Assembly (NCBI GenBank): GCA_003209425.1
Contig: QCRB01000007.1
Coordinates: forward strand, 1 to 56,910
Length of the DNA stretch: 56,910 nucleotides
Reading direction: 5' to 3'
Source of the DNA: Prochlorococcus sp. AG-459-E08
GTDB taxonomy: Bacteria; Cyanobacteriota; Cyanobacteriia; PCC-6307; Cyanobiaceae
Part shown: piece by piece, positions 25,522 through 42,550 of the stretch
Layout: each line of letters begins with the position of its first letter
How positions within the stretch are numbered: position 1 is the first letter of the stretch
Made by a program: the position numbers and the translations under genes
Notes under the pieces: model-generated
What the model was told of the DNA's origin: nothing
The model's database searches: none
The model's input: only the letters and a program-made list of their open reading frames with translations

Positions 25522-25806
25522 TTATTCAGAAATCCAGCGGTTAATTATTGTCCCGTCATAAATGTGACCAGACGCCTCGACTATTGGTTTAGTTTCCGGG
25601 TTAACAAAGATGTCGTAACAAGTATTTACTGGTCCTTGAAACATAACGGTTGCTCTTTTGGGGTCTTCAAGTGATTTACCAATATAAAAGGTTTTCACTC
25701 CCATCTCTTTAAACATGGCCTGTTGTTCAGGAGCATTCATATGAGCCTCATATTCCTCAAAAGTATTGCTTAATTTAAAATCTAAAACAGTTGTTTCAAT
25801 TGACAT
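25522..25806 (-). CDS. DUF3764 family protein, copy 1
   Basis: 94 residues of the picocyanobacterial DUF3764 family. It shares with the copy at 35170-35448 the start MS(I/L)ETTV..FK, a central FEE(Y/W) and the end SAGHIYD-type motif (ASGHIYDGTIINRW here). The size and alternation of strands and helices suggest a ferredoxin-like alpha+beta fold similar to the ABM-type protein encoded upstream. The function is unknown. The repeated leader hairpin (25807-25852) abuts its ATG. Confidence 0.75.
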   Translation of the reverse strand: MSIETTVLDFKLSNTFEEYEAHMNAPEQQAMFKEMGVKTFYIGKSLEDPKRATVMFQGPVNTCYDIFVNPETKPIVEASGHIYDGTIINRWISE

Positions 25807-25852
25807 AAAAAAAAAGGAGCTGAATGCCCCTTATTCTAGATCGACTGTCAAA
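25807..25852 (-). promoter_or_regulatory. leader hairpin element, copy A
   Basis: Read on the minus strand: TTGACAGTCGATCTAGAAT, then a stem AAGGGGC / GCTCCTT with a short loop, then nine T directly against the ATG of the DUF3764 gene. Closely similar sequences stand before the DUF3764 copy 2 (35449-35490) and, less exactly, the ABM-like gene (26293-26335). A hairpin plus T run in a 5' leader could be a terminator of the gene upstream or an attenuator of the gene downstream. Confidence 0.55.
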
Positions 25853-25861
25853 CATATTTCA

Positions 25862-26251
25862 TTAGAGTCTGCTATAACCTAATTTTGACTGAAAAACCTT
25901 AAAGGGAACACCAGTCCCTTTCATTACTTCGAGACACTTATCCCCAACTGTTCCATATACTTCAACAGTAAAATCATCCGCAAGTTTTGGATGCTCTTGT
26001 AAATATTCACCAATTGCTGGATTAGCCAAGTGAGCGATAAATGCTTCATCGTTTTTATAAGCCTCAGACCACACAAAGATCAGAGGATTTTCTGGATCCT
26101 GATCAAAAGTATGATGTAGCATTCCTGGCTCAGCAGCCTCAACGGCTTTATCTGTTTTATCCGCAAGTTCTAAATACTCAGAAACTTTATCTTCTTTTAA
26201 AGTGATTTTCGCTAAAAGAATAAAAGGAGTATCTGCTCCAAAATTTGTCAT
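25862..26251 (-). CDS. ABM-type (antibiotic biosynthesis monooxygenase-like) small protein
   Basis: 129 residues with the dimeric alpha+beta barrel pattern of ABM/YgiN proteins: FILLAKITLKEDKVSEYLELADKTDKAVEAAEPGMLHHTFDQDPENPLIFVWSEAYKNDEAFIAHLANP. These proteins act as quinol or heme monooxygenases or have no known reaction. The C-terminal 30 residues (GVPFKVFQSKLGYSRL) are distinctive and recur in a decayed copy at 34433-34554. It is first in an operon with DUF3764, the secreted protein and the NTF2-like gene. Confidence 0.75.
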   Translation of the reverse strand: MTNFGADTPFILLAKITLKEDKVSEYLELADKTDKAVEAAEPGMLHHTFDQDPENPLIFVWSEAYKNDEAFIAHLANPAIGEYLQEHPKLADDFTVEVYGTVGDKCLEVMKGTGVPFKVFQSKLGYSRL

Positions 26252-26292: not shown

Positions 26293-26335
26293 AAAAAAGG
26301 AGCTTTGAAAGTCCCTTTATCGATCGACTTTCAAT
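26293..26335 (-). promoter_or_regulatory. leader hairpin element, copy C (divergent)
   Basis: On the minus strand it reads TTGAAAGTCGATCGAT, AAAGGGAC, loop, GCTCCTTTTTT, and is the third and most diverged copy of the element. It lies about 42 bases before the ATG of the ABM-like gene. It keeps the AAAAAAGGAGCT edge and the ATCGA-x-(T)xTCAA edge but its stem is imperfect. Confidence 0.45.
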
Positions 26336-34191: not shown

Positions 34192-34257
34192 ATGCTATTA
34201 GACGCATTTTTAATGAATATATGTGTTGTAGTTATAGCGTTGCTTATCAGAAGATAA
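34192..34257 (+). CDS. possible 21-residue membrane peptide
   Basis: ATG followed by a hydrophobic stretch (LLDAFLMNICVVVIALLI) and RR stop. It lies 27 bases before another micro-membrane gene. It is very short and may be chance. Confidence 0.25.
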   Translation: MLLDAFLMNICVVVIALLIRR

Positions 34258-34284: not shown

Positions 34285-34404
34285 ATGAAAACACAAATTT
34301 TAAAAGAGCATTACATTCCAAATATCCATGCTATTACTCTTTTACTAATGCTTCTTCTATGTCTGTGGTTACCAATTGCTCTCAGATTCTTATTAATATT
34401 TTAG
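34285..34404 (+). CDS. 39-residue membrane peptide
   Basis: A single hydrophobic helix (AITLLLMLLLCLWLPIALRFLLIF) fills the C-terminal half after a polar start (MKTQILKEHYIPNIH). A purine-rich AAGGCGAG lies nine bases before the ATG. No family is recognised. Confidence 0.45.
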   Translation: MKTQILKEHYIPNIHAITLLLMLLLCLWLPIALRFLLIF

Positions 34405-34432
34405 TCTAACTAATTAGTTAATACTCTAATCC

Positions 34433-34554
34433 TTAAACTCTGCTATATCCTAGTTTTGTCTTAAAGATCTTATATGGAACACCTATCACGTTCATGACTT
34501 CAATAACTTTATCTCCCAAATTTACGTGAATTTCAGCAGAAAAAATTTCAGGAG
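34433..34554 (-). pseudogene. decayed C-terminal fragment of an ABM-like gene
   Basis: Reading the minus strand gives about 38 codons ending GDKVIEVMNVIGVPYKIFKTKLGYSRV, then stop. This aligns without gaps to the end of the ABM-like protein at 25862-26251 (GDKCLEVMKGTGVPFKVFQSKLGYSRL). An in-frame TAG lies just upstream (near 34558) and the N-terminal two-thirds are gone, replaced by the DUF1651 gene. It is a remnant of a second ABM copy in the small-protein cluster. Confidence 0.8.
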
Positions 34555-34561
34555 CAAAGAC

Positions 34562-34819
34562 CTAAATCTCTTTTTTAGGCCAAACCTCCTCAGTTTTCCT
34601 CCAACCTTGAGAGATTAACCTTCTATAAATTTCTCTAGCTAAATCTAAATCTACAGAAACTGTTGTTGTCATTACAGGAGGTTCTTTTCCTAAAATACCA
34701 ACTATTTTTCCAGTATCTACAAACATATACTCAAAAACACCATCTATGCTCTTATCGTTTTTTATAAACCTTTTTACTTCTGTTCTTTTTGGGTTAATCA
34801 ACCAATGAGATTTAGCCAT
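34562..34819 (-). CDS. DUF1651 family protein, copy 1
   Basis: 85 residues from the Met of MAKSHWLINPKRTEV; an upstream Met at 34837 adds six residues. It shares with the protein at 44586-44834 the WLI(N/D) start, F(E)YMF, G(I/H)xG(K/E)xPP and the end L(I/N)xxGWxKT. DUF1651 is a family I know from marine picocyanobacteria; its function is unknown. It lies between the DUF3303 gene and the ABM remnant on the same strand. Confidence 0.7.
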   Translation of the reverse strand: MAKSHWLINPKRTEVKRFIKNDKSIDGVFEYMFVDTGKIVGILGKEPPVMTTTVSVDLDLAREIYRRLISQGWRKTEEVWPKKEI

Positions 34820-34846
34820 TAATTGAAAAAAATACAACGCGTTTGA

Positions 34847-35134
34847 TTAACAATATAGAGCTACTGTTTGATCTAAATCTGCACATGGTTCAATCGTAAA
34901 CTCCAATAATTCTCTCCAAGATTGCCACTGTTGCCAAATAGTTTCTAAAGAATCAGCATCTACAACAGAGTAACCATTTCCATTTTGAGGTAAGAAAATC
35001 CAAGATTTAACATCGTAACCCTCTGGTCTATTTTGTGGCCCTCCTTTGTCGTACCATTCTTTTAACATTTTAGATCCTTTGTCTTGGGCGTTTGCATCAT
35101 TAAATTTATAAGAGATAAGAAACAGCATAAGCAA
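34847..35134 (-). CDS. DUF3303-like protein, short copy
   Basis: 95 residues with the DUF3303 pattern: a first strand LMLFLISYKF, helix SKMLKEWYDKGGP, GYDVKSWIFLPQNGNGYSVVDADSLETIWQQWQSWRELLEFTIEPCADLDQ. It probably adopts an alpha+beta barrel like ABM proteins. It is related to the protein at 35500-35820, two genes upstream, which suggests local duplication. The function is unknown. Confidence 0.65.
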   Translation of the reverse strand: MLMLFLISYKFNDANAQDKGSKMLKEWYDKGGPQNRPEGYDVKSWIFLPQNGNGYSVVDADSLETIWQQWQSWRELLEFTIEPCADLDQTVALYC

Positions 35135-35169: not shown

Positions 35170-35448
35170 TTAAAAGTAACTGGTAATAACGGTTGAATCA
35201 TAAATATGACCTGCACTCTCAATTAATGGTTTCACTGCTGGATCTTCAAACATAGCTATTGATTTACCTTCTTCACCCTGTTCAATAAGAATTACGCTGG
35301 TTGGATCATCTTTCTTTACCCCTTTATATAAGCAAACAATTCCACGTTCTTTATTCATTTGTATATTTTCTTGACTGTCATAAACTGCAGCCCATTCCTC
35401 AAAAGGGACGCTTATTTTGAATGTAAAAACAGTAGTTTCAAGAGACAT
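35170..35448 (-). CDS. DUF3764 family protein, copy 2
   Basis: 92 residues, homologous to the protein at 25522-25806 over its whole length (start MSLETTVFTFKISVPFEEW; end VKPLIESAGHIYDSTVI). Both copies have the same leader hairpin directly before the ATG. Here it is flanked by two DUF3303-type genes, whereas copy 1 follows an ABM-type gene. The function is unknown; the shared leader suggests shared control. Confidence 0.75.
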   Translation of the reverse strand: MSLETTVFTFKISVPFEEWAAVYDSQENIQMNKERGIVCLYKGVKKDDPTSVILIEQGEEGKSIAMFEDPAVKPLIESAGHIYDSTVITSYF

Positions 35449-35490
35449 AAAAAAGGAGCTAGTTGCTCCTTATTCTAGATCGAATGTCAA
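35449..35490 (-). promoter_or_regulatory. leader hairpin element, copy B
   Basis: On the minus strand TTGACATTCGATCTAGAAT is followed by a perfect 7-bp stem AAGGAGC / GCTCCTT (loop AACTA) and six T in all, running directly into the ATG of the DUF3764 gene. It is the cleanest of the three copies. The stem contains an AAGGAG sequence, so it could also hide or present a ribosome-binding site, although the distance to ATG (about 17 bases) is long. Confidence 0.6.
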
Positions 35491-35499
35491 TTAATTGAA

Positions 35500-35820
35500 T
35501 TATCCCATTGCAGCAACAGCATCAGCAACTTGTTTGTTTCTTTGAATAACTTCATCATCATTTAAAACAGCAGTGATATTCCAATCAAGACCAAATTTCG
35601 CTCTCCACACTCCAAAATGTTGAGATATTGCTAAGTGATTATCAGCCTTGAAAGTAACAAAAACCTCTCCTGTTTCAGGCGCATGGAATCTACTTACCAA
35701 TTCAAACCCATCAAAATTATCCATAGGTGCACCAGAAGCAATATACTGCTCAAACATCTTGTAACCTTCGGACTGAGAAATTCCGTCTGGAATAAGTCCA
35801 TGAACGTGATAGTAAGCCAT
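35500..35820 (-). CDS. DUF3303 family protein
   Basis: 106 residues: MAYYHVHGLIPDGISQSEGYKMFEQYIASGAPMDNFDGFELVSRFHAPETGEVFVTFKADNHLAISQHFGVWRAKFGLDWNITAVLND has the two strand-helix-strand halves and central W of DUF3303. It is a soluble small alpha+beta protein of unknown function and first of the minus-strand cluster 35820-34433. The 173 bases upstream (35821-35993) contain no gene. Confidence 0.7.
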   Translation of the reverse strand: MAYYHVHGLIPDGISQSEGYKMFEQYIASGAPMDNFDGFELVSRFHAPETGEVFVTFKADNHLAISQHFGVWRAKFGLDWNITAVLNDDEVIQRNKQVADAVAAMG

Positions 35821-42146: not shown

Positions 42147-42550
42147 GATATTTGATTTCCTTCTAACAGGATATAAAATTACATATTTTAAAGTCTATTT
42201 ACTCATAAACCTAGAATACGTGAATTCGGGGATTTCTCTCGATAATTTCAGTACCTGTTGTCGCTAGTAATTATAAAGCGAAGTCTTATCAGACTAATTG
42301 ATTGAACTTGAATTTTCGAATAATCCCATTCTCAGGAATACGCTTCCTATATTTTGGAATTTGCTAAATTTCAGGCGGACTATCAATCATTTAGATTGCC
42401 TCCGAACTCAACATTTATAAATTACTCCTTTTTATAATTTCAGTAAATCCGTAAATATGCTGATTTACTTTTTTCTTAATTTATAAGAGGATTTTAATGA
42501 TCCTTTGTTTTTTATAGATAAATTTAAAAATTAAAGTCTATAATCCTTAG
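42147..42550. other. gene-poor 404-base stretch, candidate small RNA locus
   Basis: No ORF of natural composition is seen on either strand. Base composition looks slightly less AT-rich than neighbouring spacers, and small stem-loops are visible (minus strand AGTCT-GATA-AGACT and GGAAGCGTATTCC). With the terminator at 42119-42146 it could be a minus-strand non-coding RNA or a long 3' UTR of the gene at 42551. No match to tmRNA, RNase P RNA or Yfr1 (ACTCCTCACAC) was found by eye. Confidence 0.35.

Follow-up and report, generated by a model that had tools for sequence, protein, structure and literature searches.

Truncated pseudogenes left behind by deletion are a known kind of feature in streamlined bacterial genomes. 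Proteins of the ABM family (PF03992) are LsrG-like dimeric alpha+beta barrels. Among short conserved units holding a tiny frame, Yfr6 is given, in the available text of its descriptions, as a 244-nt RNA with a 33-residue frame (PMC1242208, PMC2518516).

In the window, as we call the whole stretch of 56,910 nucleotides that was analysed (GC, 31%), the minus strand from 34561 to 34433 reads VFAPEIFSAEIHVNLGDKVIEVMNVIGVPYKIFKTKLGYSRV and then a stop codon, with 42 codons open after a TAG. The last 36 of these codons and their TAA (34433..34543, minus strand) appear to be the end of a lost ABM-type gene, which we refer to as ABM2. These 36 codons (34543-34436) matched residues 94-129 of the window's intact ABM-type protein, ABM1 (25862..26251, minus strand), without gaps. 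Identity was 19/36 (53%) with 29/36 positive residues. Searched against the window, the stump gave E=7e-10 for this match and E=1.6 for the next unrelated one, and the DNA was 73% identical over 116 bp (E=1.7e-12). This indicates that the stump is real and excludes a chance match. The first-pass annotation was therefore right that a fragment matching the C-terminal part of an ABM-like protein lies here. Its length of 38 codons agrees with neither the open stretch nor the matching part, and its description of the changes as only conservative does not hold, as seven of the 17 substitutions are non-conservative, against 10 conservative ones. The stop after which it had the fragment begin is the TAG of a DUF1651 gene, whose frame the stump happens to share in the window. 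It had also described a remnant of a second ABM-like gene without an N-terminal part; the PF03992 region is indeed absent, along with the rest of the first two thirds.

ABM1 matches PF03992 at residues 9-83 (E=2e-11). Its first 90 residues resembled the solved structures of a putative monooxygenase (3f44, E=5e-9) and of LsrG (3qmq, E=2e-4), and its single-sequence structure model, being poor (pLDDT 56), was set aside. With the ABM domain at residues 9-83 of the intact protein and its own counterpart at residues 94-129, the stump lies outside the domain. A Pfam search of 34436-34561 returned no family, PF03992 included.

Our search with the 42 residues against 151 genomes of the genus, the window's own genome among them, gave matches in 69, and the best after the window itself were mostly full-length genes. 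The first-pass annotation had pointed to relatives for a complete ABM gene at this place, and such a gene was found. At 28 loci, a whole ABM2 adjoins the same conserved frame that follows the stump on the opposite strand in the window (sORF2, 34285..34404, plus strand). This frame encodes a 39-residue hydrophobic peptide and is convergent with the stump, with 28 bp between the two stop codons. The 28 intact genes, with open frames of 133-156 codons, share 64-75% identity with the stump, versus 50-53% for the window's own ABM1. An intact homologue thus stands at the corresponding locus in relatives, as is expected of a pseudogene. In four of the 28 (L014, L019, L025 and L034), DUF3764b, DUF3303b, DUF1651 and ABM2 follow one another, an order that the window shares as far as DUF1651. 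At 15 others the neighbours are DUF3764b and a relative of the window's 25.0 kb gene instead, and the remaining nine have part of that arrangement, other neighbours, or none in the stretch. Since intact ABM2 adjoins the same conserved frame in 28 genomes, the stump points to a resident paralogue lost by deletion here; a counterpoint to this reading is that the DUF1651 row accompanies intact ABM2 in only those four loci.

In a tree of 50 full-length proteins and the stump, ABM1 formed a clade of 11 rows with 100/100 support. The stump fell among the ABM2 rows, outside the ABM1 clade, with weak local support (91/44), as expected of a row with only 36 residues. The genomes with ABM1 are few and incomplete. 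Judged by identity and tree placement, the lost gene is ABM2, an old paralogue of ABM1 and not a copy of it. The first-pass annotation had read the stump as a decayed duplication of the 25.9 kb gene or of its whole cluster (24.6-26.3 kb). Even with the DNA identity to ABM1 and a leader sequence that the two clusters share, such an origin is scarcely credible, because ABM1 is not the closest relative of the stump by either measure and whole ABM2 genes stand beside the same frame elsewhere.

Upstream of the stump on the minus strand lie the genes for DUF1651 (34562..34819; PF07864, E=5.2e-15; ATG at 34819, with a TTG at 34837 that would add six residues), DUF3303 b (34847..35134; PF11746, E=2.9e-15), DUF3764 b (35170..35448; PF12594, E=1.3e-31) and DUF3303 c (35500..35820; PF11746, E=1.6e-10). 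The putative deletion junction (34544..34561, minus strand) separates the DUF1651 stop codon from the stump, and about 0.6 kb is missing here relative to the four intact loci of the DUF1651 row. In alignment to these four loci, the window keeps the end of DUF1651, then lacks about 605-640 bp, and resumes with the last 36 ABM2 codons; the missing part is the spacer after DUF1651 together with two thirds of ABM2, counted from its start. A junction of similar form, in which a tail of similar length comes directly after DUF1651, was found in L021, L022, L033 and L042 (genomes G004, G071, G116 and G120). This indicates that the junction was most likely inherited and is not an assembly fault of the window's genome, whose completeness is 69%. 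With an in-frame query, DUF1651 was found beside the stump in L003, L021, L022, L033, L042 and L060, and beside intact ABM2 in the four loci named above.

We then classed 121 loci by the state of ABM2; the classing was limited to loci with an sORF2 hit, plus five without any sORF hit. Besides the 28 loci with whole ABM2 adjoining sORF2, seven have an ABM gene that is whole but separated from sORF2 by another gene, and six have a near-full but damaged ABM2: stops interrupt it in L037, L039, L054 and L056, L112 has lost an internal part, and in L123 the gene is in pieces. Longer tails occur in six loci, namely the five that make up the window's class, where the tail stops at profile base 141-152, and L107, where it stops at profile base 213 in a different arrangement. 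One tail, in L060, ends at profile base 116, another single one at base 58, and 38 short ones at base 85-107. No tail was found at the threshold used in 29 loci, at least eight of which are second copies of the sORF pair located elsewhere, and two of the 29 (L106 and L109) showed sub-threshold likeness to base 58-62. Counting junctions and lesions together, at least six are distinct, which suggests that ABM2 was lost repeatedly. Across the genus, this one locus displays successive stages of loss, from the whole gene through stops and frameshifts to ever shorter tails and finally nothing. A third type of DUF3764 gene, about 49% identical to gene b, was seen beside the shorter ABM2 stump in 37 loci (L063-L102 and others), where it takes the place of the DUF3303b-DUF1651 row; 37 of the 38 short tails lie beside this type.

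Over the last 35 codons, pN/pS was 0.84 in the five remnants with the window's junction (10 pairs) versus 0.17 in the 28 intact genes. Little coding constraint is therefore left over this length, as in a pseudogene; for the last 15 codons alone the five remnants gave 0.59, the 37 shorter remnants 0.39 and the intact genes 0.26, so that the remnants come closer to intact genes there. Compared with the nearest intact gene, 17 of 108 bases of the stump differ, distributed as 4/6/7 over the three codon positions. The nine resulting residue changes compare with a drift expectation of 11.3 +/- 1.6 (P(<=9)=0.13). The frame stayed open in 49% of neutral simulations (P=0.49), so an open stump frame is expected by chance.

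These results bear on whether the stump might function as a micro-protein or extend DUF1651 by readthrough. Its frame has no stop and continues in frame after the DUF1651 stop in the window, L022 and L033, and in four of the five remnants one position holds a GTG or TTG that could serve as a start but is an ordinary valine in the intact protein. However, L021 and L042 do not keep the relation to the DUF1651 frame, the five remnants have no start codon in common (ATG occurs in two), and purifying selection was not seen over the 35 codons. We consider a functional product of this kind very improbable. The first-pass annotation had called the stump a pseudogene and had named a conserved micro-protein as the contrary case, and its choice is borne out by the pN/pS value, by the lack of a common start and by the varying frame.

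The end of the tail needs separate consideration. Diversity over the last 15 codons by codon position was 0.12/0.094/0.124 in 20 remnants of both types versus 0.022/0.019/0.09 in the intact genes, and weak constraint may act on the final 48 bases. These bases might be kept in the service of the convergent sORF pair, for instance as a transcript 3' end or a terminator. The terminal bases are alike in remnants of the two types, pN/pS is intermediate over the last 15 codons, and the 38 shortest, class-B tails all end in the 85-107 range of the profile. But the tails of the 37 remnants are no less diverse (0.145) than fourfold sites of the neighbouring DUF3764 gene (0.105, 29 sites). Moreover, several loci have the sORF pair without any tail (e.g. 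L103, L108, L113, L119 and L120), and where the pair stands apart from ABM2 the likeness mostly ends near 34417. We therefore regard such a role as unlikely, though less so than a micro-protein.

On all this evidence, which comes from sequence comparison, the stump is very probably a pseudogene left by deletion of the resident paralogue ABM2. The proposed course is as follows. ABM2, of about 129 residues with an N-terminal ABM-type barrel and a C-terminal extension, would have stood between DUF1651 and the tiny-peptide genes. Comparison of loci indicates that an ancestor shared with at least four other sampled genomes lost about 0.6 kb, comprising the DUF1651-ABM2 spacer and the first two thirds of ABM2 with the barrel, and that the C-terminal extension was left adjoining the DUF1651 stop codon. 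The statistics on the five sequences point to near-neutral drift of the stump since then, with no product kept by selection. That the stump can still be recognised would be due to a loss that is recent compared with drift, and to the sORF pair, which ends 28 bp beyond the stump; deletions at this end would stop before the conserved pair.

The first-pass annotation had further proposed that related gene sets lie behind the clusters at 24.6-26.3 and 34.4-35.8 kb. This is fair, but the stump is no evidence of a duplicated cluster. The DUF3764 pair it had reported is present: gene a (25522..25806, minus strand; E=4.7e-33), beside ABM1, matches PF12594 as gene b does. The two proteins are only 40% identical, which indicates that the DUF3764 paralogy is old too. 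The leader it had described as shared is also present, with 79% DNA identity between the two DUF3764 genes over 100 bp that span the leader and the first codons. This leader, TTGACA(G/T)TCGATCTAGAATAAGG, lies just before the DUF3764 starts on the minus strand (25807-25851 and 35449-35490) and contains a short hairpin and a T-run, with a weaker copy near 26334 before ABM1. From its sequence it looks like a terminator or an attenuator. The suggested reshuffling is supported as well, for other genomes combine the gene types of the clusters differently. The DUF3764a-ABM1 pair of G071 (L051) lies about 1.3 kb from the stump, and G034 (L056) has a single row of ABM2 in damaged form, the 25.0 kb gene, DUF3764a and ABM1 ahead of the 35.9 kb, 36.2 kb and cupin genes.

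The similarity of other loci to the window past the stump was high or rising downstream, with or without intact ABM2. The peptide pair was found because this DNA proved so strikingly conserved. In addition to sORF2, it comprises sORF1 (34192..34257, plus strand), normally of 29 residues (112/116 loci), which has 21 in the window, where it is cut by a TAA. For sORF2, pN/pS was 0.20 (117 loci) and the start is ATG in 117 of 118 loci, the exception being a TTG in L033. The diversity of sORF1 by codon position was 0.056/0.024/0.224, and the two frames are spaced by 3 bases in 111/116 loci. In L033 sORF1 is shifted and runs into sORF2, and in L125 it was not recognised. An internal stop in sORF2 was found in a second copy (L132) and in a copy in G119; the second pair in the window's own genome (C2, L131) is whole.

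sORF2 was found in 106 of the 151 genomes of the genus, in 39 of the 51 high-quality ones, and in a family-wide sample in 8/201 genomes, all of this genus (1/59 genera). The unit is thus confined to this genus in the samples examined, is present twice in some genomes and sometimes lies near Hli-like genes. Second copies near such genes were seen in L111, L115, L118, L122, L126, L127, L129 and L130; we take these genes to be Hli-like from their resemblance to the window's 26.5-26.9 kb frames, whose Pfam score is just under the PF00504 cut-off. Neither sORF1 nor sORF2 matched a Pfam or NCBIfam family at the limits used, and a single sub-threshold Pfam hit of sORF1 (E=0.076) was taken as chance.

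The region 5' of sORF2 was considered as a structured RNA leader. The consensus fold was weak (-2.97; z -4.6, from 33 dereplicated of the 116 loci and 40 column shuffles that keep neither relatedness nor dinucleotides), and the period-3 pattern in the presumed leader revealed a second reading frame, sORF1. Rfam gave no match at the sORF region at the gathering score. The region may have an RNA role besides coding. A Yfr8 sRNA match was also seen in the window (42187-42412, plus strand, 251 bits); together with the GC content and the genome sizes, it suggests a high-light Prochlorococcus. Identity of the sORF unit with Yfr6 was rejected, as only short chance alignments were obtained with the Yfr6 interval as published in the available text. 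We read this interval from genome G015, which we took to be MED4.

A phage origin was likewise rejected, as neither sORF2 (E up to 0.1) nor ABM1 (E up to 1e-5) had a match among 50,697 phage records. In marine cyanobacteria, DUF1651 genes are among those that the host induces when infected by phage, according to the available part of PMC5490813. The neighbourhood of the stump may thus bear on phage response, which is a lead and not a result.

Our analysis suggests that the locus is probably anchored by a two-gene membrane-peptide unit (29 + 39 residues, usually 3 bp apart), up to whose edge accessory genes like ABM2 are repeatedly deleted. As a guess, the pair might have an accessory role in the response to stress or phage, or form a type-I-toxin-like module. 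The peptides are short enough to be missed by gene callers with a size cut-off. The stump itself is ordinary gene decay, and the peptide pair is the more interesting feature.

Compared with the ABM family, intact ABM1 is like known members in matching PF03992, 3f44 and LsrG, whereas the stump is unlike them, being a C-terminal extension alone. The sORF unit is similar to Yfr6, as far as that RNA's available descriptions go, in being a short conserved unit that holds a tiny frame. The stump resembles the truncated pseudogenes of streamlined genomes in its deletion junction, its relaxed constraint and the graded lesions in relatives. It differs from them in the conserved peptide pair at its edge and is otherwise in no way unusual.
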